The notes under the pieces: generated by a model
Told to the model about the DNA's origin: nothing
The model's input: the letters and a program-made list of their open reading frames with translations, nothing else
Database searches by the model: none
Part shown: positions 4,997 through 55,604 of the stretch, piece by piece
Layout of the letters: every line of letters starts with the position of its first letter
How positions within the stretch are numbered: position 1 is the first letter of the stretch
Translations under genes and position numbers: made by a program
Source: Spartinivicinus marinus
Lineage (GTDB): Bacteria; Pseudomonadota; Gammaproteobacteria; Pseudomonadales; Zooshikellaceae
Direction of reading: 5' to 3'
DNA: 58,584 bases
Assembly: GCF_026309355.1 (NCBI RefSeq)
Contig: NZ_JAPJZK010000002.1
Location: 117,485-176,068, forward strand

Positions 4997-5800
4997 TTAC
5001 CCCAAGCTTTTCCATTTCACCCAAAGAACCGCTGCAATCACCGCAAAAAAACTACTACTCCAAAGTAAATCCCGATGGCGACGATAGAGGGTTTTAACTG
5101 CAAACCATAGTGGTCTAGCTTCGGCTTGACGGTATCTCACTTTGTAACTTTTTAATAGGCGGTCAGTATAACCAAACTCCTCAGATAGATGTTGCTTTTC
5201 AGCGAGAATTTCCCTCATATAATCTGTAAGCGAACGTTCGGTAATATTGGCTTTCCAAGCTGTCACAGGGGTTAATTGGCCAACATGAATAGGCCGTGAA
5301 TGACCAGCTTGTTGCTTTGAACTTGTAAAATCAAACTCAATTCCAAACTGCTCATACAACCGGTTTCGTCGTAGTTTATTGGAACCATGACCTTGGCCCT
5401 CAACTAACTCGATTGTGTTCACCGATGCATCAGGCCATTGTTGTAGCCACTCAACAATAGTATTGAGAAGATAGGTTCCTATACGCTGGCCATGAAGCCC
5501 AGATAGATCCAGAAAAACGCCTCCACTTTCAAATGGCAAGCTGGCAGTTAATGAAGCACGGTTATAACGCTTTGAGTAGCATCCACAAAAATACCCCTTA
5601 CTTTCTAGACCTGGACGATGGGGACCAAGCCGTTGATAACGAAGCTTTATCACAGCGTCCATTATCTCATTATCTTGGGAATATCGATATTTCTCCTCGC
5701 GTTCTACCAGCAAATGAGCAATAGGAGACTGATCAGGCCGATCTCGGTGACGAATTTCGAGAATATAGGTATTTGAGTTAGGGTGGAGCATAATGAACAA
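4997..5800 (-). CDS. GNAT-like acetyltransferase with C-terminal membrane anchor
   Basis: A 267-residue protein converging on the SRAP gene with one base between the stops. The middle, 'LHGQRIGTYLLNTIVEWL' followed by 'NKLRRNRLYEQFGIEF', has the look of GNAT motif A and the acceptor-side N...YE..G motif. The C-terminus is a single hydrophobic segment (LLWSSSFFAVIAAVLWV) after a basic stretch, consistent with a tail anchor. The substrate is unknown. The ATG at 5791 (MLHPNSN) is an alternative start. Confidence 0.55.
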   Translation of the reverse strand: MFIMLHPNSNTYILEIRHRDRPDQSPIAHLLVEREEKYRYSQDNEIMDAVIKLRYQRLGPHRPGLESKGYFCGCYSKRYNRASLTASLPFESGGVFLDLSGLHGQRIGTYLLNTIVEWLQQWPDASVNTIELVEGQGHGSNKLRRNRLYEQFGIEFDFTSSKQQAGHSRPIHVGQLTPVTAWKANITERSLTDYMREILAEKQHLSEEFGYTDRLLKSYKVRYRQAEARPLWFAVKTLYRRHRDLLWSSSFFAVIAAVLWVKWKSLG

Positions 5801-6174
5801 ATTCCTTTATCAAAAGCGCTAAATATTTAATGAAATAAGCTCAGTACTGGATAGGGAAGCAGTCACAATAAGACAGTCTTTTTTTCTAACTGTTGGGGTT
5901 TATATTGATATGGCTAAACCCCAACTAGGGTGAAACAGTTGAGGTCAGAGTTGAAGACGGAACACATGCTTGCAAAGGGAGCCGCGAGTGGAATTAAGCC
6001 AGTTTTTTAGAGCTAATCTTAGTTATCTTACGACTCAACCATAAGCAACTTACCTCAAAAGGTTAAGTGGATACTCCCAAAGTATACTTTAATATCAGTC
6101 ATTTAATTGCTCACTCACCAACGATGATAAAATGGTAGAGAACGTTATTTTTATCACCATTTTCATTTAGTAAT
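5801..6174. other. Trailer side of left CRISPR array, with an 11-bp inverted repeat
   Basis: No gene. It contains a perfect 11-bp inverted repeat, GTTGGGGTTTA (5892-5902) and TAAACCCCAAC (5915-5925), with a 12-nt loop. No U-tract follows on either strand, so it is not a canonical intrinsic terminator, though it could still slow transcripts leaving the array. Confidence 0.5.
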
Positions 6175-7643
6175 TTTCTAAGCTGCCTATGCGGCAGATA
6201 ACCGGGAGGCTTTGCTCTATTACCAACACCAGCTTATCTAAGCTGCCTATGCGGCAGATAACTTACGCGAAGAATAGGCGAGTCTCTCAAGATTTTTCTA
6301 AGCTGCCTATGCGGCAGATAACCATTAGTGATAATCCTCATAATTCACCACATATTTCTAAGCTGCCTATGCTGCAGATAACGTGGCACCATCCCAAAGG
6401 AAACCGGCGTCAAATTTCTAAGCTGCCTATGCGGCAGATAACCTGACCACTTTGGCTGGTCAGGAATTTCGAGATTTCTAAGCTGCCTATGCGGCAGATA
6501 ACAACATGTGAAGAAGAAGACACATAGCTCTATATTTCTAAGCTGCCTATGCGGCAGATAACTGAGTGCTGAGGCGGTACTACTGTACTAGGAGTTTCTA
6601 AGCTGCCTATGCGGCAGATAACTATTTATTAATCGCTATAAAATGTATTTAAAATTTCTAAGCTGCCTATGCGGCAGATAACTTGTTGTGACATCTAGTG
6701 CGCGGACTCCAAAGTTTCTAAGCTGCCTATGCGGCAGATAACGCTATGTCCATATGAGTCCTCAAAGTTTGAAATTTCTAAGCTGCCTATGCGGCAGATA
6801 ACTACCAATAATTGTTGCAATCTTTGCATAAACATTTCTAAGCTGCCTATGCGGCAGATAACTAACACCTTTAGCTTGTGATTTTAAATGAATGTTTCTA
6901 AGCTGCCTATGCGGCAGATAACAGCAAGCGCAAATCTCACAAGAGCAACTGATTTTTCTAAGCTGCCTATGCGGCAGATAACTTAACGGTGTAAAGCTAC
7001 TCCCCAGCCAATAATTTCTAAGCTGCCTATGCGGCAGATAACGCAAAAGATATGCGTAAATTAATGATTAACAATTTCTAAGCTGCCTATGCGGCAGATA
7101 ACCCAACATTACAGCGTGGTAACTATATTATCATTTTCTAAGCTGCCTATGCGGCAGATAACCTATTCCAGCTAATGATTGGGATTTGGTGTTATTTCTA
7201 AGCTGCCTATGCGGCAGATAACAATACATAGTCAATACCAGCAACAAGACAATATTTCTAAGCTGCCTATGCGGCAGATAACCTTTAAGCGCGGCTTTCC
7301 TTTCTTCCTTTATTTTTCTAAGCTGCCTATGCGGCAGATAACAGCAAAGTCCATTTTTTCGCAAACCTGCTGTAATTTCTAAGCTGCCTATGCGGCAGAT
7401 AACGTTGGGTAATTGCTGCGGTAGCTGCGTTAGTATTTCTAAGCTGCCTATGCGGCAGATAACATCGTCATCGAACATTTCTGACCACTTTGGCTTTTCT
7501 AAGCTGCCTATGCGGCAGATAACAAAAACCCACACTATCTGATGATGATTAACAATTTCTAAGCTGCCTATGCGGCAGATAACAAAAGAATGTTGTTGCA
7601 GCACTTCTTAGTGCTTTTCTAAGCTGCCTATGCGGCAGATAAC
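6175..7643 (-). CRISPR. Type I-F CRISPR array, 25 repeats and 24 spacers, transcribed leftward
   Basis: 28-bp repeats recur every 60 bp from 6175 to 7616 (one interval is 61 bp). In crRNA sense the repeat begins GTTATCTGCC, has the stem CTGCC-GCATA-GGCAG and ends CTTAGAAA, a typical I-F (Csy4) repeat. Spacers are 32 nt except one of 33 nt (7343-7375). Repeats near the distal end carry single changes (repeat starting at 6235: T to A; repeat at 6355: G to T in the stem), normal trailer decay. The leader-proximal end is next to csy4. Two spacers overlap each other (7464-7495 and 6443-6474), and three match loci also hit by the right-hand array. Confidence 0.97.
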
Positions 7644-7779: not shown

Positions 7780-8379
7780 CTAGAAGTAAGGTAGCGTTGT
7801 TCCACTCTTGCTTAGCCCATAGCTAGAGAAATAGCCTTCAGTGGGTTTGCTAGAAAGAGTTTGCTGTATACACAGCTGAAATTGCTGGCCTGTGCTTTTG
7901 CTGCCAATCGATAGAAATGCTCGCTCAGCTTGATACTCCTTATGCCACCGATGAGCACGTGCTTTTAAAATGGTTTGATCAGGCTCAATGCCTTTATTTT
8001 TTAGATATTGAATGAAGCGCTCTTGTCCTTTTTTTAGGCCTTTTGGGCTACCTCGATCCGCACGTTGGCTCCGTCTGTAGCTAACAAAGGTATTAACTTC
8101 AGGTGTATTCAAACACTGGATTAACTTGATACCACCAGATTCTTGTAAAAAGAGTAAATTTGAACCCTTAATTAGCCTTGCTAGAGCAGTTTGATCACCA
8201 AATATTCGCAGTTGATTACCTGGATGATTATTTTTTAATTCTGGAAATGCAACGCCAATGGTATTTATTTCATTGGCAGATAAGTAACCATGCAACTGTC
8301 GCATGACTTTACCCATCATCCAACCTGTTTCGTTTGCTGGAGTGATAATATCTACGTCAACATAATGGCTTAACTGCAT
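7780..8379 (-). CDS. csy4: Csy4/Cas6f CRISPR RNA endoribonuclease
   Basis: 199 residues, against about 187 for P. aeruginosa Csy4. Family marks are the catalytic His30 in 'MRQLHGYL', 'NTIGVAFPEL', the serine region 'SIGSKSTGQQFQLCI', and the ending 'GYFSSYGLSKSGTTLPYF', which closely mirrors the Csy4 C-terminus. It cleaves pre-crRNA at the 3' base of the repeat hairpin, leaving the 8-nt CUUAGAAA handle. An AAGGAGG ribosome-binding site precedes the ATG. It is the last gene of the leftward csy operon, 12 nt behind csy3. Confidence 0.95.
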   Translation of the reverse strand: MQLSHYVDVDIITPANETGWMMGKVMRQLHGYLSANEINTIGVAFPELKNNHPGNQLRIFGDQTALARLIKGSNLLFLQESGGIKLIQCLNTPEVNTFVSYRRSQRADRGSPKGLKKGQERFIQYLKNKGIEPDQTILKARAHRWHKEYQAERAFLSIGSKSTGQQFQLCIQQTLSSKPTEGYFSSYGLSKSGTTLPYF

Positions 8380-9462: not shown

Positions 9463-10353
9463 CTATTCAGTAGTATCAACAGTCAATAAACGGTTGTTGG
9501 CATCATAGGTATGCTGCCAAATCGCTTGCATATTTTTTAAATCTAAATTGTTTTTGCTATGGCTTGATAAATAGCGCCACTGTGCCACGGAGGTAACTGG
9601 CTCTGCATAGGCGTGAGGCAACGGCTGTCGTGTACCCGTCCGATTTTTAGGTGACTCAATTAAACGGTATCCAATCGCGGTAGGGATTATCCAGCCTGGT
9701 TGATTTCGCGTGTATTGCCCATCATCGTTTTTATTTAATGCCAGTACATCCAATAGCCGGTCTAAACTGTCCTGCTCATCACCGTCATCTTCTGGCATGA
9801 GCAGTTCTTTTCGATTACACAATAACCAACCGTTACCGATCTTTTTTAGCTGTTCTGTCAGCTTTTGAGAAGAATTGCACCACGCAATATGGCCATGTTT
9901 AATAACGCGACCACCCGCTAAAGGCGTCTTCACCAATAGTCCATTTAACTGTGCTAGTTGCTCTTTAATCGCAGAGTCCACTTCACAGGGCTCTTCATCT
10001 TCATCCATCCAAACGGACAGTACCAATGACAGACGTAAGTCTACTTTCAGCTCCTGAACAATCGGTGGGTTCATGGATTTTGGTTTAGTGGGTGCTTTGC
10101 CATGAAGTGCCGGCGGGCACTTGCTTTGTCCTGGAATAAGGGATAGCTGATGACCAATAATGGAAACACCACGAATCTGCAGGGTTTCCAACTCATGTTG
10201 ACTGGCTACGTCTTTCAACCAGTTTAATTCCAACCAATGACCAAATCCTGTAAATGCTGTTAGGGCAGGAAATCCGGCAATATACATATTGGCTTCGGCG
10301 TTGGCTTGTTCAATTGATAAAGACGGCAAAAATAAATAACCTGCAAATTCCAT
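9463..10353 (-). CDS. csy2: Csy2/Cas5f subunit of the Type I-F surveillance complex
   Basis: 296 residues when started at the ATG at 10353, which overlaps the csy1 stop as TAATG and has GGGAGG 7 nt upstream. An upstream in-frame ATG at 10371 is open but lacks such a site. The protein begins 'MEFAGYLFLPSLSIEQANA' and contains 'FPALTAFTGFGHWLE' and 'SIIGHQLSLI', regions typical of Csy2. It binds the 5' handle of crRNA together with Csy1. Confidence 0.92.
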   Translation of the reverse strand: MEFAGYLFLPSLSIEQANAEANMYIAGFPALTAFTGFGHWLELNWLKDVASQHELETLQIRGVSIIGHQLSLIPGQSKCPPALHGKAPTKPKSMNPPIVQELKVDLRLSLVLSVWMDEDEEPCEVDSAIKEQLAQLNGLLVKTPLAGGRVIKHGHIAWCNSSQKLTEQLKKIGNGWLLCNRKELLMPEDDGDEQDSLDRLLDVLALNKNDDGQYTRNQPGWIIPTAIGYRLIESPKNRTGTRQPLPHAYAEPVTSVAQWRYLSSHSKNNLDLKNMQAIWQHTYDANNRLLTVDTTE

Positions 10354-11762
10354 TAGTTTGCCTCCCACCATTCATTCAACGCATGATTCATTATTTTACG
10401 ATCGCTATCTCCCAATACAGCAGCCTCTTTGCCATTAATATAACGAGCTTCTTGCATCACTTGGTCAGCTTTTTCTTTGACAGATAGCAATTTATTTTTA
10501 GCTAAAGTTTCTAATAACCAAGCTTGCTCATCATCGGGTAAATGAGAGAGTTTTTGTATATGCTCGTCAACCGGCAACTGATGTAATGCTTCTTTTACCT
10601 TTAAAATACGATGAAATAATTGTGATACTAAATTAATGGCAGATTGTCGATGGTAAGCTCGACGGTGCCGATCAGGCATGTCCTTTGACCCTGGGTTCAT
10701 TAAAGCACTAGCATCTAATGGTTTTCGACGAGACAATTCAAATATACTGTCTTTGCAGCATGTTAATTGAAACCATAGTTTTGACTGCTGACCTGATGAT
10801 ACAGGCATTGGCATATTAGCAATAAAATGTTTGTATTTGCCGCCTATTTCAGAACTAAATGGGCCAGTATTAATCGGGTTTGAGCCACCAATCTTTACAT
10901 CCAATACAGTAAAATATTGATTTTTTTTCTGCTCTTTTTCTACTGCTTTACCATCTTCTTTTTTATTGCTAAAACGCCGCTCATTTAACCGATGATGTAA
11001 CTCTCGGGTAAAACCAAAAGGGACTACTGGTGTGATTAAAATATCTTGAAACCCATCTCCATCACGAATCGGCCAAAATACCTGCTTAGCAAAGCGGTCA
11101 ACAGGCCGAGAATCTTTCGATTGAGACCAATATTGTTGTGCTTTTAGCTGCAACTTTTCACACCAATGCTCTTCAAGCCCCAGTGTTTTTAGAATACTAA
11201 CTACTGGTTCTACGCCCTGGGCAAAACACTGCACTAAAGACAGTAACGCTCCATCCACACAAAACTCTTGGGCTAATAGCCGAATATAACCTGCATTAGA
11301 GGCATTACCCGCTCCGCTAACCAATCGCGCTGTATGGGTACTGATTGAGTGTACGTAAGGTATAGTAGCAACTGCTTTATGCTCTAAATCAAGGTCGACA
11401 GCAGCACCCTGACTGACACTTGCATTTGGACACTTTAGATTGTGTGTACCTACTAATTCAATTGTGCTTAATAATGTATCTAATGACTTCTCATTGCATA
11501 AAAACTCCTTAGCTAATTCACGATCGTGTAAGCGCTCATTATTTTTTTTACATTTATAAATCGTGGCATTGATTAATACAACAATAAATTGAGTTAACTC
11601 AATTTTAGTAATGTTAGGCGGTGGTGACTTATCAAAACGACTGACTAAGTCCGCTAACTCCTTAGCATTAAACAAAACACTGGATGCTTGTTTCATAGTA
11701 AAAATCATTTTATCTACTTGTCTTTGAAATACGTTATCAGTATTATCTTTTAAACTCAACAT
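10353..11762 (-). CDS. csy1: Csy1/Cas8f large subunit of the Type I-F surveillance complex
   Basis: 469 residues, somewhat longer than the usual ~430. The family core is visible: 'SRPVDRFAKQVFWPI', 'HHRLNERRFSN', and 'KIGGSNPINTGPFSSEIGGK', the counterpart of the Csy1 GG-P-N-S segment. Csy1 recognises the PAM and nontarget strand. The first ATG (11762) has no Shine-Dalgarno; the predicted promoter would give a leader of only about 8 nt. This start lies inside the sequence matched by the pseudo-spacer of the mini-CRISPR. An internal start at MIFTMKQASS is possible. Confidence 0.9.
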   Translation of the reverse strand: MLSLKDNTDNVFQRQVDKMIFTMKQASSVLFNAKELADLVSRFDKSPPPNITKIELTQFIVVLINATIYKCKKNNERLHDRELAKEFLCNEKSLDTLLSTIELVGTHNLKCPNASVSQGAAVDLDLEHKAVATIPYVHSISTHTARLVSGAGNASNAGYIRLLAQEFCVDGALLSLVQCFAQGVEPVVSILKTLGLEEHWCEKLQLKAQQYWSQSKDSRPVDRFAKQVFWPIRDGDGFQDILITPVVPFGFTRELHHRLNERRFSNKKEDGKAVEKEQKKNQYFTVLDVKIGGSNPINTGPFSSEIGGKYKHFIANMPMPVSSGQQSKLWFQLTCCKDSIFELSRRKPLDASALMNPGSKDMPDRHRRAYHRQSAINLVSQLFHRILKVKEALHQLPVDEHIQKLSHLPDDEQAWLLETLAKNKLLSVKEKADQVMQEARYINGKEAAVLGDSDRKIMNHALNEWWEAN

Positions 11763-11769
11763 ATAGAGG
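11743..11769 (-). promoter_or_regulatory. Predicted target of the mini-CRISPR guide at the csy1 start
   Basis: Read on the minus strand, CC (11769-11768) is followed by a 25-nt stretch (11767-11743) that includes the csy1 ATG. It matches pseudo-spacer 11820-11844 at 20 of 25 positions: 1-5, 7-11, 13-16, 18, 20-21 and 23-25. The mismatches at 6, 12, 17, 19 and 22 are all spacer T against target A. Positions 6 and 12 are the ones a Type I guide flips out and does not pair. Binding here would cover the predicted transcription start. Confidence 0.8.
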
Positions 11770-11776
11770 AATTATT

Positions 11777-11805
11777 ATTTTATTTGTAATTATTTACTAT
11801 CGCAA
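11777..11805 (-). promoter_or_regulatory. Predicted csy operon promoter
   Basis: On the minus strand, TTGCGA (11805-11800) and TAAAAT (11782-11777) are separated by 17 bp and would start transcription near 11770, a few bases before the csy1 ATG. The -35 lies inside the first pseudo-repeat of the mini-CRISPR, so promoter and guide RNA gene overlap on opposite strands. Confidence 0.6.
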
Positions 11806-11872
11806 AGATAGCTTAGAAGTCTATTTGTTGTGTTTTATAGTTAAATCAGCTGCCGCATAGGCAGGTACTACT
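11792..11872 (+). ncRNA. CreR-like mini-CRISPR (pseudo-repeat, pseudo-spacer, pseudo-repeat)
   Basis: The csy1-cas1 gap holds two degenerate copies of the CRISPR repeat. The first (11792-11819) agrees with the consensus at 19 of 28 positions; its stem is CTATC-GCAAA-GATAG instead of CTGCC-GCATA-GGCAG, so pairing is kept by compensatory changes, and the handle CTTAGAAG differs from CTTAGAAA by one base. The second (11845-11872) keeps the exact 15-nt stem-loop CTGCCGCATAGGCAG (11850-11864) but little else. Between them is a 25-nt pseudo-spacer (11820-11844). Csy4 cleavage at both hairpins would release a crRNA-like guide. It targets the csy1 start region next to a CC PAM. CreR-type Cas-regulating RNAs are known in other Type I loci; assignment here is inference from sequence. 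Confidence 0.85.
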
Positions 11873-11891
11873 TTTTATACAAGGATGTTCT

Positions 11892-12779
11892 ATGAGTTTA
11901 TTACCCTCACATCGCCAAGGCTTATACTTACTCGAACACTGCCGAGTGATGGTAAAAGATGAACAACTTACTTATGTACAACAAAAGGATGGCTTTCAAA
12001 AATATTTTGCTATTCCTTATGCTAATACCAATGTATTGCTATTAGGTACTGGCACCTCAATTACACAGCCGGCTACTCGGCTGTTAGCCGAAGCGGGTGT
12101 ATTATTAGGATTTACTGGTGGAGGTGGAACACCTTTATTTTTAGCTTCTCAAAATGAATATCGACCAACACAATATTTACAAGCTTGGGTTAAAATGTGG
12201 CAATCCACTGCCAACCGTTTAAAGGTCTATCAATATTTTCAACAACAACGCTGCAGCTTTTTAGAAGACAGTTGGCGTAAGTTAGATGCATTTGAAAAAG
12301 TTGATTTGAATGCAGTTATTCATCATTACCAAACTCAAATATTATGCGCCACCAATGGCCAAACCCTAATGGGCTATGAAGCTAATTTTGCTCGTCAGCT
12401 CTATCGTATTGCCGCTGAAATAACCGGTGGACATCATTTTGAGCGTAAGCCCGGTAGTGGTGAAACAGGTGACCGCTTTAACCGTTACTTGGACCACGGT
12501 AATTACCTGGCTTATGGGCTAGCAGCAACAGTTTTATGGGTATTGGGCATTCCGCATTCTTTACCAGTGGCTCATGGTATGACACGGCGTGGTGCATTAG
12601 TGTTTGATGTGGCCGATATGATCAAAGACGCCACCATTTTACCTAATGCATTTATCTCTGCCGCCAATCAAGAATCTGATCAACAGATGCGTAATCGCTG
12701 TATTGCATTTTTTGATCAAACCAAAACGCTCCGTTTTTTATTTGACCACATTAAAGCTGTAACGGAGATGGACTGGTGA
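11892..12779 (+). CDS. cas1: Cas1 integrase (Type I-F)
   Basis: 295 residues, slightly short for I-F Cas1. The start 'SHRQGLYLLEHCRVMVKDEQLTYV' and the metal-binding residues are visible: Glu in 'MGYEANFARQLY' (about residue 162), His in 'PVAHGMTRRGALVFDVADMIKDA' (about 227) and Asp in the same segment (about 240). It integrates new spacers together with the Cas2 part of Cas2-3. AAGGA lies 6 nt before the ATG. It diverges from csy1 across the mini-CRISPR and overlaps the next gene by 4 nt. Confidence 0.94.
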   Translation: MSLLPSHRQGLYLLEHCRVMVKDEQLTYVQQKDGFQKYFAIPYANTNVLLLGTGTSITQPATRLLAEAGVLLGFTGGGGTPLFLASQNEYRPTQYLQAWVKMWQSTANRLKVYQYFQQQRCSFLEDSWRKLDAFEKVDLNAVIHHYQTQILCATNGQTLMGYEANFARQLYRIAAEITGGHHFERKPGSGETGDRFNRYLDHGNYLAYGLAATVLWVLGIPHSLPVAHGMTRRGALVFDVADMIKDATILPNAFISAANQESDQQMRNRCIAFFDQTKTLRFLFDHIKAVTEMDW

Positions 12780-18216: not shown

Positions 18217-18515
18217 GGAGTAATATGTAGTTTCTTAGTATCGACATAATGAGTATAGAGCTAATATGAATGTAGTTGATCTGCGTGTCGTTTTCACCAT
18301 AAGTTGGTAAAAGAACGCGAAAAGAACTCCATTTGTTGTCAGTTACACTAACAGTTAATAGTCATCATCGTTTAACAACTACCCTCTTGTCTCCTTTCCC
18401 TACGAATGCACTCTGCTCCCTTTCCAAAACCCGCCGATAACTCTTCTACTTAGCGGCAGTTACCGGGAAATATATGACAGTTTGGTTGTAGGTTGATCTA
18501 TTTTGATTATATGAA
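18217..18515. other. Intergenic region with a partial long repeat
   Basis: Positions about 18409-18500 hold a diverged copy of the long intergenic repeat: CTGCTCCC, AACCCGCCGATAACTC, GCGGCAGTTACCGGGAAATA, TATGACAGTTTGGTTGTAGG. The rest (18217-18400) shows no gene and presumably carries the promoter of the leftward gene ending at 18216. Confidence 0.6.
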
Positions 18516-19002: not shown

Positions 19003-19263
19003 TGTATTCTGACTGAAAAACGCAATATGGTCTAATTTTAATGTGCACAAAACTAAACCACCTGGCTCTCAATGCTGCTCAGTGCTCTGTTTTCCTGCTC
19101 CCTCCCTCAAGCTTTCCTAAAAACTTCCGATAATCACAATTAGTGGTAGTTATCTGGGAGTATATGACAGTTTGGTTGTAGTTTGATCAAATTAGATAGA
19201 GAGGAATCCCACACTCTGGCTAGTGCAGGGTGGGGTGGGCGAGCTGGCTAGATATCAGCATGC
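19003..19263 (-). repeat. Long intergenic repeat, full copy (~260 bp)
   Basis: Begins GTATTCTGACTGAAA (19003), continues with TGCTCAGTGCTCTGTTTTCC, CCGATAATCACAATTAG, GTTATCTGGGAGTATATGAC, AGTTTGGTTGTAGTTTGATC and ends with the hairpin module GAGCTGGCTAGATATCAGC (19241). The same blocks in the same order occur at 32366-32635 and, split by a transposon, at 25809-25935 plus 30905-31050. Partial copies lie near 18409, 20135 and 34245. Confidence 0.75.
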
Positions 19264-22888: not shown

Positions 22889-23596
22889 TTACCATTGGTA
22901 GCTATTACTTATGTCTGCAGGGTTAAGAACTATTATCTTATTCCAATATTTTTTTTCCACACTTATTTCGTTTATTCTGTCGTATTGTAAAGCGTGAATA
23001 AAGTCAATTAGTACTAGCCAGTAGTTTTTATTAGTATGATCTATTTTTTTATCATTAATAAATTTTTCTAGCTTTTCTGTTTTATCATTAATGCTATATT
23101 GAAGACTATTTGAACAAACTTCTCCAGACCAGCCAGTATCTCCTTCAATGTTATCCATTCCTCCAACAATAAATGTTTTATCAAATACTTCGCTAGAAAG
23201 ATATAGCTCAATTTGTAGGTCTTTGCTGACATCAATTAAGTAATATTCTGAGTTATCTTTTTTAGAGGCAAAGTCATCTAGCTCTTTGCGGATTTTTTTG
23301 CCAAGTTTTCCAATACTCCTTGTGCAGGAGTTTGAAAAAGTAAGAAATATAAACCATGAATAACCTAGTTGTTTGTTTCCAATCTCTGCTGTAATTTTTT
23401 CAAGCTTATCTTGTACTGGAATATTATTTACTTTTTTTCCATTTTCTAGAACACGAGTAAGCCTAGTGGCTTCTACAATAGTGTCATTATTCACAATAAA
23501 ATCGGGGAATTTTTTATTACCACAAGGCTCATATATGTATTCCTTTATACCAATCTTATTTAAATAATTTAAACAACATTGCTCATCTATATTCAT
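22889..23596 (-). CDS. Hypothetical protein, possible PD-(D/E)xK-like fold
   Basis: 235 residues, no signal peptide. The stretch 'PDFIVNNDTIVEATRLTR' near residues 31-48 resembles the D-X(n)-E-x-[TK] core of restriction-endonuclease-like folds, but the final lysine is replaced by Thr, so activity is uncertain. The rest is unrecognised and rich in Lys, Asn and Ile. It is a single leftward gene in the modular region, preceded by about 150 bp with a partial copy of the hairpin module at 23716-23746. Confidence 0.4.
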   Translation of the reverse strand: MNIDEQCCLNYLNKIGIKEYIYEPCGNKKFPDFIVNNDTIVEATRLTRVLENGKKVNNIPVQDKLEKITAEIGNKQLGYSWFIFLTFSNSCTRSIGKLGKKIRKELDDFASKKDNSEYYLIDVSKDLQIELYLSSEVFDKTFIVGGMDNIEGDTGWSGEVCSNSLQYSINDKTEKLEKFINDKKIDHTNKNYWLVLIDFIHALQYDRINEISVEKKYWNKIIVLNPADISNSYQW

Positions 23597-48412: not shown

Positions 48413-51400
48413 TTAAACAATATCCTCCAGAATCCTTCTCCCCAGCTCCACTGCATTCTCGCCCTCAAGAATGCTATAGTGCCCACCACCTATCACTCGC
48501 TTATTTTCGCTTTCTAATGACAGAGCATTCAGCAATTCTGCTTCCTCTTGCTCCTCGGAAGCTTTGTAGTAGTAGACCTGTCCGCCTTTCTTTTTCGGCG
48601 TATATCCGACTAAGAGAGAAAGATACTCCCTGGTAACCTCAAGCTGCTCGAGTATATATCCAAAAGAATCTAACTCTATTTTGATATTGAGATGCTCTGT
48701 TAATGCTTTTAAGGCGGTCTCTTTTTCTGATGCAGCAAAGACACCCTCATCCCACCCTTTAGCTTTAATAAATTCAACTATCTTATTAACTTCCGACGGA
48801 GCAAATCCTTGACGACGGAGAGTCGCCAAAATATTGAGTACAGCGAGAAATGCATTGTGATCCTCCTGCGTGGAGTAGTGAGGGATAAGACTAGAATCTA
48901 GAAGCCCAAGATAGGCAACATTCTTACCTCGCTCTTCTAGTACGCTAGCAATCTCTAAAGCAAATAACCCGCCAGATGACCAACCCACTAAATTAAAGGC
49001 GTCATCCGATTGATACTTTACTAACTCATCGGCATAGAATTCAGCCAACTCCCTGATAGATGAATAAGTCATATTCTCCAGAGAAGTAATTCCACAGATA
49101 TTAAAGGCTTCACCCAACACATCCGACAAATCCTTGTAATAGAAGACTTTCCCACCAATGGGGTGAATGCAAAAAACATTGGGCTTACCTGAATTCACCT
49201 TCAAAGGAACTAAGACAGTTGGCTTATATTCAATCCCATCCGAAGCATTCAGATACAACGCAATATCCGCCAGCGTCTTGGAGTTAAAGACCACACTTGA
49301 AGGGATATCAATTTGAAACATTTCATATATCGCTCGGGCCAAGCGAATAGTTAGCAGGGAATCACCGCCCAAAGCAAAAAAGTTGTCGTTGACACCAACT
49401 TTTTCTACATTTAACAGCATAATAAATATTTCAACCAGACGCAGCTCTGTCTCATTTCGAGGCGAGACATATTGATCACTATCACCGGACATCTTCGGTT
49501 CAGGGAGACTCAAACGATCAAGTTTACCATTCGGCAATTTAGGCAATGCATCCACAAAAGTGAAAAGCGTCGGAACCATATATGCAGGTAGACTTTCGTT
49601 CAGCAGATCACGAACATTCTGAACCGTCAGCCCCCCTCCATTCTTGACAACAATATAAGCCGCCAGCTGAGGAGCGTTTGCCCCTAATGGCCAACCAACC
49701 ACACAGATCTGCTGTACAGAAGAGTGTTCCATTGCCGCTGCTTCGACTTGACGAACGTCAATTCGATAACCACGCACTTTTACTTCAAAATCATCTCTTC
49801 CAATATACTCGAGCGAGCCGTCCTCTAGCTGACGCACAAGGTCTCCAGTTTTATACATTCGAGACCCTGGCGTTGCGCTATACGGATTAGGGATAAAACG
49901 CTCGGCCGTAATCTTTTGCTGTTGCCAATACCCCTGCGCCATACCAATACTATCTACATATAGCTTGCCAACAGCACCTCTCGGCACCTGCCTCAAATGT
50001 TTATCCAGAACGTATATTTTTGTATTCGCAATAGGCGTTCCTATAGATAAAGGCTGCTGTTGCTGGTCGCTAGAAACCAAACTATAGGTCGTATCATTCA
50101 ATTCTGTACAACCATAGTTATTCCAAATCGTAACGGACGGCAAACAGTCTCTTACACTCTCAACAAGCCCAGCACTTAAGGGTTCACCAGCTGTAGTTAT
50201 CTGCTTAACCGATCCCCACGAACTTTCTTTATCTTGTGACAATACATCGACTAACGCCTGAAGATGTGATGGAACCAGATAGATATGACTAACCCTCCAA
50301 TGCTCAATCGCCAGCATAAGTGCTTTCGCATCCTTTACAACGGCATCTGGCAAAATTACCTGTCGATTACCAGCCATTAACCCTGTCAGCATTTCCTTTA
50401 CAGATACAGCAAATGCCGAAGAGGTTTTCTGCAATATCACATCCCCTTCTGCAAGTGGAGCTCGCTTCCACGAAGCCTCCAACCAGTTGAGAATTTGACT
50501 ATACGGCACCATAACACCTTTTGGTTTTCCTGTTGAACCAGAGGTGTACATAATGCATGCCGTTTGATTTGGCGCCACTTTTATTGAACTATTGGCTTCC
50601 GACATAGAAGCCAAGTCAGTGTTTTCCCAACCAAGAGTCGGATTCAACGCAACAGATAATGTCTCCCATCTTTCGAGTTTGCCACTCTTACCAGAAGTTA
50701 AAACAAAATCCGGCTCGACATCACCTAACATATCGCTGATAACAGCTTCTGAATAAGCCGGGTCAATGGGTATGTAACAACCACCCACCTTAAACACAGC
50801 TAACATAGAAGCCAAAAACTCTAAGGAACGCTCACAATGAATAGCAACCCTTCCAGCCACCCCACATCCTTTTTGCTTCAATAAAGCCGCCAGTTGATTC
50901 GCCCGCTCATTTAACAAGCTATAGGTAAGAGTGCGCTCGCTCGCATAATTGAGGCGCGGATCAAACTCATCAACACTAATACACGCAACAGCATAGGGAG
51001 TTTCTTTTACCTGACACTCAAAAATATCTGCAATACTTTGGTGCAAGTTGATATCAACGTCAGTCTGATTAACACCTTTCAATTTCTCTGCATCACCAGA
51101 AACTAAAGTGGGAATATCCCTCAGTCGGCACCCCTGATTTTCCACAAGGAATTCCAATACGTTTTGATGTTGCGCTATCAAAGCCTGTACAGTACTTTCA
51201 CTGAAAAGCTCTTTCGCATACTCAACCGTAACCTGTAAATACTCACCATCACCATAAAACTGCAAATCAAGTTCACTTGGTGTCGTACGCTCGCCAACAC
51301 TCGCTGGCTGCATTGATACGTCCCCTCGCAAATTATCTATTTCTGCTGTCGGGAAATTCTGGTGGCGCAACATTACTGGCACCAATGGAATTAAGCTACT

Positions 51401-54301
51401 GTCGCGCTCTTTATTCAGAGCACTTAACAGATGCTCAAACGGAAGCGATGCATGCTCATATGCCTCCAACACCAACTGCCGAGTGTCCCGCAATAAATGG
51501 TCAACAGTAGGATTACCGGAAAGATCCAGCCTCATTGCCAATATATTGACAAAAAATCCAATTAAATTCTCAAACTCCAGCTGTTCCCGACCTGCTATTG
51601 TCGTTCCCAGACAGAGATCTTCGCGCCCACTATACTGATTGATAACGATGGCAAAGCTTGCTAGCAACGTCATATATAAGGTCGTATTCCTTTCCTGACT
51701 TTGACGTGCAACTTTAACAGCCAATTCTTTTGGATATTCATAATGAAAACTTCCAGCACTCCAAGCCTTGTCAGCTGGGCGAGGATAATCGTACGGCAAC
51801 GCCAAACCATCATCGTAATCAGCCAACTGCTCTTTCCAGTAAATCAGATGTTCACTTAAGTCCTGCTCGCGCTGCCACTGTGAGAAATCAGCATACTGCA
51901 ATGGCAAAGCTGGAAGAACAGCGTCAATTTCGCTTAGCGCAGCGGTATACAAGGCATGCAAATCGCGTACAATAAGATTGAGAGACCAGCCATCACTAAT
52001 AATGTGATGCATATTGATAAGCAAAGCATGATGACCATCTGCCGCCTTTAAAATAGAAACCTGAAATAACGGCCCTTTACTCAAATCAAAAACAAAAGCG
52101 GCTTGTTTTTCTATAATGCCAGGAACATCCTCTTCCTTCACTTCTAGAACAGGAACATCAAGCGTCAGTAAATCTGCAACAACCTGTTGCGGCTCGCCAT
52201 CAAAGGGAGATAAAGAAAACGTTGTTCGTAGAATTTCATGGCGATCAACAAGCATATTAACAGCTTTACGCATCGCCTCTATCGACAAGTCACCATGCAA
52301 ATGGAATGCGAAAACCAAATTATAACTGGTTCGCTGCTCTTCCATATTTTCATGAATAAACCAAAGACGCTCCTGCTCATAGGACAGCGGAATCTGCTTA
52401 TTTCGAGCAATATTCCCAACACCTTTATCCGCTACAATACCACTCTCAAGCAAAGCTTTATCTACCGCCACAGAAAATGTTTCCAGCTCGGGCATTTCAA
52501 ACAAAGTAGAAATAGGCAGGTCTACATTAAGCTCCTGGCGAATACGTGAAAAAAGCTGCGTCGCTAACAATGAGTGGCCACCGAGAGCAAAAAAGTTATC
52601 TGTTTTACCAACCTTTGGCGTCTTCCCCTCTTGTACAAGCACCTGCGCCCAAATATCAGCAAGAATTGTCTCCGTTTTCGTCGAAGGCGCTACAAAATCC
52701 GCATCTTCATTGTGTACAGTTGGTGCGGGTAAGCTTTGCCTATCTATTTTACTATTTGGTAATCGTGGAAGCTCCTGTAAAAACTCATAGAGAGTTGGAA
52801 CCATATAAGTTGGTAACTTCGCACCCAGATACTCACGCAGACACTCTTGATCAACACCATCTACAGCAATATCCAGTACTATATACACCACTAACTGTGG
52901 TGTTTTTGAATCTTGCGGCCATCCAATCACAGCAACTTCCTTTATGCCATCCATAGCCGCTATAACTTTTTCTACTTGCCTTACATCAACTCGATAACCA
53001 CGTATTTTGATCTCGTAGTCGCGACGTCCTATAAACTCCAGAGCCCCCCCCTCCAGATAACGGGCCATGTCACCGGTTTTATACATACATGTTCCAGGTT
53101 GACCATAGATATTGGGGATAAACCTCTCGGCTGTAAGACCCGGCCGCTGAAAGTAACCACGTGCAATACCCACACTACTTACATAAACCTCACCAAGAAT
53201 ACCCACCGGAGATACACGCAACCCTTCATCTAAAACATAAACATCACTATTTGCTATTGGATAGCCAACTGGCACAAAACCACTACTACCCTTAGCATCC
53301 AAAGGATCGCAATATGTCATGTCATTCATTTCAGTACAGCCGTAAATATACCAGACCTTCGCCTTGGGCATTACTTGCTGAATTCGCTCAAACAATTCAT
53401 CAGAAAGCGGCTCAATAGAAACAAACAAATACTTTATTGAAGACAGCTGAGAAGGAGAGCTTTCCAGATAATCAAGAATTGCTTCTAGCTGCGAAGGGAA
53501 CGTATATAGCCGAGATACGCCATGGCTTTCCATCATTTTTACAAAAACAGGGATATCTTTGACAACACTATCCTCAACAAATAACTGAGGAACCCCCTTC
53601 AAGAGTCCAGCAAATATTTCCTTCGTTGAAATAGCAAAAGATATCGATGTTTTTTGTGCCACCAACTCCTCACCAACAAATGGCTCTCTTTCCCACAATG
53701 CATGAAGACAGTTAAGCAACTGACGATGAGGAACCATAACCCCTTTTGGTAAACCTGTTGAGCCCGAAGTATACATAACACAAGCTAGCTGTTCCGGATG
53801 TATTACCACCTTCCGAGAAAGCACTGACGCACAAGAAAGCTCTTCATTTCCAATTAACACAACCGGAGTATTAAGGTTTCCAACATTACCAAGCAAATCA
53901 CTATCTGTTACTAGTAATACAGGGTTCGCATCAATCAGGATTTGCTTTACATAATTTGCCGGGTACTCGGGATCTAACGGAACATAACAACCACCGGCCT
54001 TGAGCACAGCCAAATAGGAAACGAGCAAATGCTCGGATCGAGTCAAATACAAGCCAACTCTTTTGTCAGCAGCAACCCCTTTTTCAATCAATAGATTAGC
54101 TAGCTGGCAAACTCTTTTATTTAGCTCACAATAACTTAGCTCGCCATCGCCACTTTTACATGCTATTGCCTCTGGCGTATCTTCAACTTGCTTATCAAAA
54201 AGGGCTACAATACTCTTTGAAAAATCAAAATCTTTAACCAGTTGCAATGAACGAACATCAACACTTTCTAATCCGTCCAAAGAAAAATCGGATAACTTCA
54301 T
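48413..54301 (-). CDS. Nonribosomal peptide synthetase, A-PCP-C-A-PCP-TE
   Basis: 1962 residues. A1 (about 30-520: YTSGSTGLPKG, YGCTEMND, YKTGD, LPNSKIDR), PCP1 (DNFFALGGHSLL), C (about 640-1070: MHHIISDGWS), A2 (about 1090-1600: YTSGSTGKPKG, NNYGCTELND, LPNGKLDR), PCP2 (DNFFALGGDSLL), type I TE (about 1700-1962: nucleophile Ser in LVGWSSGGLFA, His in GGGHYSIL). In both A domains the A4 region reads FAIS/FAVS, so the Asp235 that normally binds the alpha-amino group is Ala, and both have Lys at 239 and Asp at 330 by my alignment. A standard alpha-amino acid is therefore unlikely as substrate. No C domain precedes A1, so A1 is a loading module. An AAAGG site precedes the ATG. Confidence 0.93.
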   Translation of the reverse strand: MKLSDFSLDGLESVDVRSLQLVKDFDFSKSIVALFDKQVEDTPEAIACKSGDGELSYCELNKRVCQLANLLIEKGVAADKRVGLYLTRSEHLLVSYLAVLKAGGCYVPLDPEYPANYVKQILIDANPVLLVTDSDLLGNVGNLNTPVVLIGNEELSCASVLSRKVVIHPEQLACVMYTSGSTGLPKGVMVPHRQLLNCLHALWEREPFVGEELVAQKTSISFAISTKEIFAGLLKGVPQLFVEDSVVKDIPVFVKMMESHGVSRLYTFPSQLEAILDYLESSPSQLSSIKYLFVSIEPLSDELFERIQQVMPKAKVWYIYGCTEMNDMTYCDPLDAKGSSGFVPVGYPIANSDVYVLDEGLRVSPVGILGEVYVSSVGIARGYFQRPGLTAERFIPNIYGQPGTCMYKTGDMARYLEGGALEFIGRRDYEIKIRGYRVDVRQVEKVIAAMDGIKEVAVIGWPQDSKTPQLVVYIVLDIAVDGVDQECLREYLGAKLPTYMVPTLYEFLQELPRLPNSKIDRQSLPAPTVHNEDADFVAPSTKTETILADIWAQVLVQEGKTPKVGKTDNFFALGGHSLLATQLFSRIRQELNVDLPISTLFEMPELETFSVAVDKALLESGIVADKGVGNIARNKQIPLSYEQERLWFIHENMEEQRTSYNLVFAFHLHGDLSIEAMRKAVNMLVDRHEILRTTFSLSPFDGEPQQVVADLLTLDVPVLEVKEEDVPGIIEKQAAFVFDLSKGPLFQVSILKAADGHHALLINMHHIISDGWSLNLIVRDLHALYTAALSEIDAVLPALPLQYADFSQWQREQDLSEHLIYWKEQLADYDDGLALPYDYPRPADKAWSAGSFHYEYPKELAVKVARQSQERNTTLYMTLLASFAIVINQYSGREDLCLGTTIAGREQLEFENLIGFFVNILAMRLDLSGNPTVDHLLRDTRQLVLEAYEHASLPFEHLLSALNKERDSSLIPLVPVMLRHQNFPTAEIDNLRGDVSMQPASVGERTTPSELDLQFYGDGEYLQVTVEYAKELFSESTVQALIAQHQNVLEFLVENQGCRLRDIPTLVSGDAEKLKGVNQTDVDINLHQSIADIFECQVKETPYAVACISVDEFDPRLNYASERTLTYSLLNERANQLAALLKQKGCGVAGRVAIHCERSLEFLASMLAVFKVGGCYIPIDPAYSEAVISDMLGDVEPDFVLTSGKSGKLERWETLSVALNPTLGWENTDLASMSEANSSIKVAPNQTACIMYTSGSTGKPKGVMVPYSQILNWLEASWKRAPLAEGDVILQKTSSAFAVSVKEMLTGLMAGNRQVILPDAVVKDAKALMLAIEHWRVSHIYLVPSHLQALVDVLSQDKESSWGSVKQITTAGEPLSAGLVESVRDCLPSVTIWNNYGCTELNDTTYSLVSSDQQQQPLSIGTPIANTKIYVLDKHLRQVPRGAVGKLYVDSIGMAQGYWQQQKITAERFIPNPYSATPGSRMYKTGDLVRQLEDGSLEYIGRDDFEVKVRGYRIDVRQVEAAAMEHSSVQQICVVGWPLGANAPQLAAYIVVKNGGGLTVQNVRDLLNESLPAYMVPTLFTFVDALPKLPNGKLDRLSLPEPKMSGDSDQYVSPRNETELRLVEIFIMLLNVEKVGVNDNFFALGGDSLLTIRLARAIYEMFQIDIPSSVVFNSKTLADIALYLNASDGIEYKPTVLVPLKVNSGKPNVFCIHPIGGKVFYYKDLSDVLGEAFNICGITSLENMTYSSIRELAEFYADELVKYQSDDAFNLVGWSSGGLFALEIASVLEERGKNVAYLGLLDSSLIPHYSTQEDHNAFLAVLNILATLRRQGFAPSEVNKIVEFIKAKGWDEGVFAASEKETALKALTEHLNIKIELDSFGYILEQLEVTREYLSLLVGYTPKKKGGQVYYYKASEEQEEAELLNALSLESENKRVIGGGHYSILEGENAVELGRRILEDIV

Positions 54302-54559
54302 TTACTTATACCTTTTTCAGTGGTCATTAGCACAACCATCACTTATACTCGATTCCGAAGTTTTTTTAGGTTGACTAGCAGGGAGAGAGACTCAGAAGAC
54401 TGGACTACAGGTATGGTTCCATTTCTTCGCCTAGCAAAGAACGATCAACACGACACCTGCAGACCAGTAATGGTGTAGTATATCGTGCTTCTACTTTAAT
54501 AGCGACTAGATGACGACTTGTGTTGATTACCCGGCATGGTTCAGAAATAGGTGTTTTTA
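54302..54559. other. Region upstream of the NRPS gene
   Basis: No gene. It should hold the NRPS promoter; I see no clear -35/-10 pair on the minus strand. Its right part grades into IS5-type remnant sequence. Confidence 0.35.
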
Positions 54560-54754
54560 GTGAACATTGGGCGATCGAGAACCTACCACAGCAGTAGTAT
54601 AAAAATTAGGCCGTTGTTGAGATATAAAACCATCATTGGTCCCAAGCTCAAAGCACGTCAATTACCGCAACAAAAAACCGAGGCTGAGGTATCCGTGCGC
54701 GTGTTAAATAGAATGACGAGTCTTGGCATGCCTATTTCTGTAAAAATTGGATAA
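54560..54754 (+). pseudogene. IS5-family transposase C-terminal remnant
   Basis: The frame around 'LRYKTIIGPKLKARQLPQQK' and 'TEAEVSVRVLNRMTSLGMPI' matches the typical end of IS5-family DDE transposases. No catalytic residues are present. Confidence 0.7.
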
Positions 54755-54836
54755 ATAGTGGACTGAATGCCTCAGCACGCCTGATTTTTCGATTTATTCA
54801 ACAACGCCGCTCACCATTAGGTAATAGCACTTCTTT

Positions 54837-55019
54837 TCAACTAAACCCATTACATGAAAATGAAGTCGGCTCACCCCAGCGATTCGCTTTAGCAGGCATC
54901 ATTGCAATAAGTGAATCAATACCTATACACAAGTAGTAGTCATAAAGCAGGTCTTGTAATTCTTTGGCGAGGCTAGACTTCCCAGAACTACTTGCACCAT
55001 TTAAATAGATTACATCCAT
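54837..55019 (-). pseudogene. Chloramphenicol-phosphotransferase-like kinase, truncated
   Basis: 60 residues: MDVIYLNGASSSGKSSLAKE carries the P-loop GASSSGKSS of CPT-like AAA kinases, then 'YYLCIGIDSLIAMMPAKANR' and an early stop. The complete enzyme is about 180 residues, so two thirds are missing. Probably cut off by the rearrangements that left the IS5 remnant. Confidence 0.7.
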
Positions 55020-55067
55020 TACCCCATACCCACCTTATTCCAATGTATTTAATACTGCTAGCTTGTG

Positions 55068-55271
55068 TTATTTTTGCTCAATACAGCTTGGGCTATTTTT
55101 TTCGATCAAGTTCGTAGTGGGCTTATTTTTATCTGATAGATTCAGTTTATTTAGATTTTTTGACTCATCACAATATTGAATACTGATAATATCATTGGTA
55201 TTTTCATAAAACTTGGCTGAATGAATCTTTGTATAACGAATACCTTGTTTATCCAATATTTCGGGGCCCAT
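55068..55271 (-). CDS. Small hypothetical open frame
   Basis: 67 residues ('MGPEILDKQGIRYTKIHSAK', 'NDIISIQYCDESKNLNKLNL'). It has the composition of a real protein but no recognisable domain or good ribosome-binding site. It could be a remnant. Low confidence. Confidence 0.25.
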   Translation of the reverse strand: MGPEILDKQGIRYTKIHSAKFYENTNDIISIQYCDESKNLNKLNLSDKNKPTTNLIEKNSPSCIEQK

Positions 55272-55604
55272 CTAATTTAGACTAGTACATCATTTCAAAG
55301 CAACTGTAGGGTAACGCTGTCGAGAGGTTTACCAGAGCCAATGGTTCTGGCTTTGCGACAGGACAATTAAATTGATTTCATGTACTAGATGAATATATAA
55401 ATCATCATACCCCATGATACACGCAAAGATGGTCAAAAAATAATTATTCATACGATGTTATGGATGGATGGCCACGATCCAAATTATGCATCAGAATAGT
55501 CAATAACTGTGGTATTATATTGATTTAAATTACAACACTAATTCATTTATAAATCCTGAGTAGTGTAGTGGCCAATACTTATCCAAAATATCAACAAATT
55601 AAAG
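55272..55604. other. Non-coding region with a single IS end
   Basis: No gene. At about 55466-55490 lies GATGGCCACGATCCAAATTA, related to the ends at 44959, 45425 and 48222. Around 55349 a GGCTTTGCGACAGGAC segment resembles an IS6-type end. Confidence 0.4.

Follow-up and report, generated by a model that had tools for sequence, protein, structure and literature searches.

The type I-F CRISPR-Cas locus of Spartinivicinus marinus holds, in the gap between csy1 and cas1, a pair of repeat-like elements enclosing one short guide, which raises the question of what this guide is directed against. In the window (the whole stretch of DNA analysed, 58,584 nucleotides) the two operons are divergent, with csy1-4 on the minus strand and cas1 and cas2-3 on the plus strand, each followed by an array, one beyond csy4 and the other beyond cas2-3. 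Cas1f, Cas3f and Csy1-4 place the system in type I-F, of which it is, by profile scores, a divergent branch, Csy1 and Csy2 falling below the curated cut-offs:

6170..7643, minus strand: left CRISPR array, 24 repeats found
7780..8379, minus strand: csy4 (Cas6f), TIGR02563, 93.3 bits
8392..9435, minus strand: csy3, TIGR02566, 282.3 bits
9463..10371, minus strand: csy2, TIGR02565, 85.2 bits, below the cut-off of 154.1
10353..11762, minus strand: csy1, TIGR02564, 56.4 bits, below the cut-off of 169.4; start likelier at 11708 or 11696
11892..12779, plus strand: cas1 (Cas1f), TIGR03637, 376.9 bits
12776..16177, plus strand: cas2-3 (Cas3f), TIGR02562, 656.9 bits
16374..17000, plus strand: right CRISPR array, 10 repeats found

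Spacers left6 and right5 agree at 29/32 positions, and left7 and right4 overlap at 22/25; judging from these near-identical and overlapping spacers, both arrays have sampled the same or related invaders. Self-priming was not apparent, as 0 of the 34 array spacers exceeded 22/32 against the rest of the window in a scan seeded on a 4-base match. The features of the csy1-cas1 gap and its borders are as follows:

11743..11767, minus strand: target (protospacer), on the csy1-sense strand, within the leader or the first codons of csy1
11749..11778, plus strand: candidate promoter of the guide gene and cas1, TTTAAA-18-TATTAT, by consensus match only, its -35 element in the target
11768..11769, minus strand: CC PAM of the target
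11777..11805, minus strand: candidate csy1 promoter, TTGCGA-17-TAAAAT, by consensus match only, its -35 element in pseudo-repeat 1
11792..11819, plus strand: pseudo-repeat 1, handle at 11812-11819
11820..11844, plus strand: guide (pseudo-spacer), 25 nt
11845..11872, plus strand: pseudo-repeat 2, exact Csy4 hairpin at 11850-11864
11865..11891, plus strand: cas1 leader from the guide hairpin to the cas1 start, 27 nt

An earlier note on this DNA had described two degenerate repeats enclosing a pseudo-spacer, and its letters and counts were confirmed to the base. On recount, pseudo-repeat 1 is identical to the array repeat at 19/28 positions, keeps its stem through paired changes (CTATC/GATAG), and has a nearly intact handle, CTTAGAAG, differing from CTTAGAAA at one base; pseudo-repeat 2, also at 19/28, carries CTGCCGCATAGGCAG unchanged, as had been claimed. 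The guide gene is oriented towards cas1, with 30 nt from its handle to the next hairpin. The exact hairpin CTGCCGYATAGGCAG has 35 copies genome-wide: the left array holds 24, the right array 10, and the guide gene one, its only location in the whole genome outside both arrays. Rfam CRISPR-DR4 gave a full-length match to pseudo-repeat 1, its 23.7 bits (E 0.01) falling short of the gathering score of 35, and folding prediction for the leader RNA formed both hairpins, the whole leader not rising above shuffled sequences (z -0.51). With repeats at 19/28 and a spacing of 53 nt, versus 60 nt in most array units, the element was rejected as an ordinary CRISPR array.

A repeat-like pair with its guide inside the cas locus is the build of CreR (cas-regulating RNA), reportedly described by Liu et al. 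in Cell Host Microbe in 2023. We interpret the guide gene as a type I-F CreR, i.e. a two-repeat mini-CRISPR whose guide would repress its own effector operon, with a probability of roughly 0.82. In the accessible text of three papers, CreR are mini-CRISPRs beside cas genes that are partially complementary to a cas promoter and autorepress the effector (PMC13131331, PMC12737573, PMC12948488), and one review among these names subtypes I-B, I-E and V-A. Repeat mimics outside arrays are also found among the Racr (RNA anti-CRISPRs), described in the accessible part of their source as virus-encoded solitary repeat units blocking host immunity (PMC10651486), whereas the pair in the window stands in the host cas locus with its guide aimed at csy1.

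The pairing claimed for the pseudo-spacer held in full: against the minus strand from 11767 to 11743 the guide is identical at 20/25 positions, with mismatches at 6, 12, 17, 19 and 22 and CC directly in front. The independent support claimed for a CC PAM was also recovered, two out-of-phase pairs of overlapping array spacers (left2/left19 and left7/right4) giving CC three times. By plain identity nothing in the window matches the guide better than the target, the guide itself aside; since the runner-up (23067-23091, without CC) reaches 19/25, plain identity is weak evidence by itself. Under a PAM- and position-weighted score over the region 11684-11960, the observed 8.97 was reached by 0 of 20,000 shuffled guides (maximum 6.18) and by 0 of 8,309 real 25-mers (maximum 4.06). 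Across the 6.88-Mb genome, CC with positions 1-16, leaving 6 and 12 free, occurs once, at csy1; when CC and positions 1-16 were allowed up to 2 mismatches, 9 genome sites were found versus 10 for a reversed control, hence no excess. The window thus resembles the published CreR in a mini-CRISPR beside cas genes with a PAM-flanked partial match to the front (promoter or leader) of its own cas operon, and differs from them, as far as their accessible text extends, in being type I-F, with Csy4-type hairpins, a CC PAM and a guide in the cas1 leader.

These observations bear on two other accounts of the element. It might be the decayed end of a CRISPR array, its spacer resembling adjacent DNA by chance, as the degeneracy of both repeats (19/28) would allow; the paired stem changes, the kept handle, the PAM, the pairing beyond shuffles and the co-variation repeated in other loci (below) leave this barely credible. 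Guide and target are inverted relative to each other in the window, an orientation that would also suit an inverted-repeat operator for a dimeric regulator or an RNA antisense to csy1 mRNA. The guide RNA would have the polarity of the csy1 mRNA, making pairing impossible and excluding antisense action, and an operator has no need for repeats, a handle, CC or free positions 6, 12 and 18; moreover, guide and target share a strand in most of the loci listed in the survey below, so that this account too is left with almost no weight. The decayed-array, antisense and operator readings were accordingly rejected on pairing, PAM and handle, on RNA polarity, and on the free positions, respectively.

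The earlier note had placed the site in the csy1 start region. Its position at the front of csy1 stands, but it probably lies in the leader rather than on the start codon: homology of the window Csy1 to two relatives (L108 and L109, below) begins only at about codon 24-30, so that codon 19 (11708) or codon 23 (11696), 54-66 nt further in than 11762, is probably the truer start. With this later start the target falls in the csy1 leader, the 25-nt site lying about 34-46 nt from the likely start, and the csy1-cas1 gap, previously given as 129 bp, becomes 183-195 bp. A csy -35 box in the gap had also been proposed, and a consensus match does occur within pseudo-repeat 1, but promoter-like matches numbered 3 versus 1.7 expected, i.e. 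chance level. If that chance-level promoter match is real, the target would begin at about the transcription start.

If the guide regulates csy1, guide and target should be expected to change together in relatives. Close Csy1 relatives were absent from 56 genomes (the window's own included) and from viral contigs, and Csy1 matches were absent from plasmids and phages; among 390 genomes of the order 28 matched, including the window's own, the others at no more than 37% identity. Two other species of the genus, like two from elsewhere in the family, lacked a Csy1 relative as well, confining the conservation comparison to distant hosts. Genome contigs were scanned for the lineage by Cas1 alignment, and among the best 80 of 553 relatives two loci stood out, L108 of Thiothrix caldifontis (Cas1 65%) and L109 of Endozoicomonas sp. 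ONNA2 (72%, its cas1 cut off by the contig end), the other 78 reaching at most 49%. Both carry a guide gene on the cas1-sense strand and a CC-flanked site on the csy1-sense strand, with different letters in each, so that the co-variation of pseudo-spacer and csy1 upstream region that the earlier note proposed to look for was indeed found.

L109, the closest relative of the same divergent layout among the best 80 of 553, pairs guide AATTTGATTTGATTAATC with target AATTTTATTTGTTTAATA, mismatched within positions 1-18 only at 6, 12 and 18, and its target edge lies 64 nt before the csy1 ATG (5009). Its second hairpin stands 29 nt from the cas1 start, compared with 27 nt in the window. Such short distances would fit hairpins that mainly let Csy4 trim the cas1-cas2/3 mRNA, with the guide as a by-product; this leaves both the guide-target pairing and a first hairpin with its handle unexplained, and we consider it very improbable.

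In L108, guide TGTATTGCTGAATACAGC faces target TGTATAGCTTAATACTGA with mismatches at 6, 10, 16 and 18, and in the region 6189-6945 the guide gene lies between an RHH-like ORF (Pfam RHH_3, E 6e-5) and a ParE-like ORF (ParE_toxin, E 2e-15). Between the end of the target and the ParE-like ORF lie 15 nt, and from that ORF to csy1 there are a further 94 nt, so that in this genome a type II toxin repressed by CRISPR may precede csy1. On these sequences two members of this branch would aim the device at csy1, and the third would aim it at a toxin or perhaps at toxin and csy operon together.

The Thiothrix arrangement favours a further reading, in which the guide is a CreA that keeps a hidden toxin gene silent (CreTA or CrePA) rather than acting on csy1 itself. 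Guides of the window's build are already published in type I-F as CreTA toxin guards: in the accessible text of Wang et al. 2023, the Acinetobacter guide represses creT, a toxin RNA gene between cas3 and csy1, the module has a degenerate repeat pair next to csy1 and a CC PAM, its 20-nt guide is unpaired at 6, 11 and 18, csy4-dependent repression by Csy, bound downstream of the start site, is about 7-fold, and 19 further modules were found by hand between Cas3 and Csy1 homologues (PMC10097628). The two-repeat build, the position next to csy1 and the CC are shared by the window, which differs in having its site directly before csy1 and its operons divergent. CrePA, in which a crRNA-like guide represses a neighbouring gene and the toxin is typically a KilA-N domain protein in the part of the source available (PMC12737573), resembles L108, whereas no toxin was seen in the window's gap. 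There, the target is followed by csy1 alone; a toxin gene beneath it was sought in the csy1-cas1 gap and not seen, in a search not exhaustive for very small toxin RNAs.

The distribution of such guides was surveyed across type I-F csy1 loci. Each csy1 was located with a profile built for this analysis. In the region beginning 900 nt upstream of it, Csy4-like hairpins with a handle were sought, and the 20 nt downstream of each were compared with CC-flanked sites, leaving positions 6, 12 and 18 unscored; a strict threshold of 6.5 or more was applied. In a first set of 52 loci (51 others and the window; L092 and L093, with Csy1-like ORFs of 690 and 718 aa, and L001, a copy of the window locus, were omitted), 20 reached at least 6.5 and 27 had no candidate, while the maximum over 1,040 shuffled regions was 4.0. 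A second set comprised 82 loci among the matches listed, with csy1 found in 55; scored over 18 positions, 15 of the 55 reached at least 6.5, among them L108, L109 and, at 8.21, L188, a published I-F CreTA locus serving as control, against a maximum of 4.63 in 1,100 shuffled regions. With duplicates removed (L156 = L075, L161 = L107), a guide/target pair is present in 34 of 105 distinct loci among the matches listed, window and CreTA control counted, suggesting that csy1 commonly has a guide of this kind beside it. The remaining 71, likewise among the matches listed, have no such guide at the strict threshold, so type I-F does not need one.

Since shuffling a region also breaks its hairpins, guide-specific controls weigh more. 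With 500 shuffled guides per locus in 19 loci, p was 0.000 in 18 and 0.002 in L042, and 1,224 mismatched pairings of guides with the regions of other loci gave a maximum of 4.93. A relaxed search (4/8 handle bases and one stem mismatch, null up to 6.78) added L064; L102, L079 and similar rows are noise, and all counts use the strict search. Type I complexes flip out every sixth base. The 38 listed pairs (in which one genome appears twice) have mismatches at the unscored positions 6, 12 and 18 in 28, 30 and 22 cases, together 80/114 and near the 75% expected of free letters at equal base use; the paired positions, which were selected by score, hold 1 mismatch in 190 at 1-5, 12 at 7-11 and 32 at 13-17.

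By distance to csy1 two groups were distinguished. A near group comprises 17 listed loci with the target edge 9-86 nt before csy1 (18-nt site, estimated csy1 starts; for L109 the ATG at 5009 was used, the automatic TTG-based estimate being 127), one member, L137, scoring only 5.64. A far group of 20 distinct loci has its target 140-535 nt before csy1, with the CreTA control at 203. In the window the target is on the csy1-sense strand, immediately beyond the candidate csy1 promoter, but in 14/17 near-group loci it is on the opposite strand, a difference that speaks against the CreR reading; the PAM stands directly or at most 4 nt before TTGA in 11 of these 14 and in 9/15 of the far group, compared with 47/938 in the background. 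The near group is best read, from its sequences, as guides on the csy1 promoter (CreR), and the far group may comprise CreTA or csy1 promoters with long leaders; because TTGA adjoins the PAM there too, some of its guides may act on such long-leader promoters and not on toxins. The far group would leave room for a toxin and to that extent favours the CreA reading, but the window's distance to its likely csy1 start lies within the near-group range, as does that of L109, and we regard a hidden toxin target in the window as unlikely. A like guide gene also occurs outside Pseudomonadota, in Veillonellaceae bacterium Marseille-P2974 (L151), where the target covers GAGGA before csy1.

Taken together, the guide gene, its CC PAM, the partial pairing with the front of csy1 and the same design with other letters in relatives support, at the level of sequence, the self-silencing that the earlier note had proposed; the processing, the repression and the tuning by crRNA supply are what we infer. 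In this type I-F CreR the gap would be transcribed towards cas1 and cut by Csy4 behind both hairpins, giving a guide RNA with its 5' end CUUAGAAG at 11812. This RNA, consisting of the 8-nt handle, a 25-30-nt guide and a 3' hairpin, would load onto Csy1-4 and bring the complex to the target, where it would halt RNA polymerase on, or immediately beyond, the start site of csy1. The likeliest action is repression by a Csy complex sitting close to the start site, as the 7-fold effect of the I-F CreA suggests by analogy; the pairing would be too short and too broken for Cas3 cutting. Repression would lift, and more Csy be made, once the complex is filled with array crRNAs or put out of action by an anti-CRISPR.

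A full promoter would hardly fit into the 27 nt between guide hairpin and cas1, so the promoter serving cas1 probably lies inside the guide gene or ahead of it, in which case the guide would be part of the cas1 leader. It is conceivable, at slightly less than even odds, that in this divergent branch the guide is cleaved off as the 5' leader of the cas1-cas2/3 mRNA, with one guide released per transcript to shut the effector operon. As the -35 element of the candidate guide promoter lies inside the target, the complex would then throttle both operons and the guide itself. If true, the leader arrangement would tie the guide to transcription of the adaptation genes, an interlock of memory-making and interference. 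More generally, if the CreR reading is true, type I-F joins the CRISPR types that dim their own expression via a built-in guide, and anti-CRISPRs would lift this brake; the near group would offer a ready set for the study of short, broken Csy pairing that represses without cutting or priming. The design is genuine and recurs in relatives, and is ordinary in principle given the known CreR and CreTA. A study of type I-F CreR was not found in the literature searched, whose reach left out most subscription papers; as far as seen, csy1 itself as the target, the guide as cas1 leader, and the subtype look new.

Two further features were noted in this genome. A second type I-F remnant (L035 4811-10633; G000:C2, about 49800-55600) contains a Cas3f half, a Cas1f without its end and three 228-aa ORFs, which we take to be transposase-like; tblastn of the window Csy proteins against the 19-kb L035 stretch found none. 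Within the window, a 58-nt repeat occurs in two copies (18450-18507 and 19140-19197) that are 83% alike and 690 nt apart.
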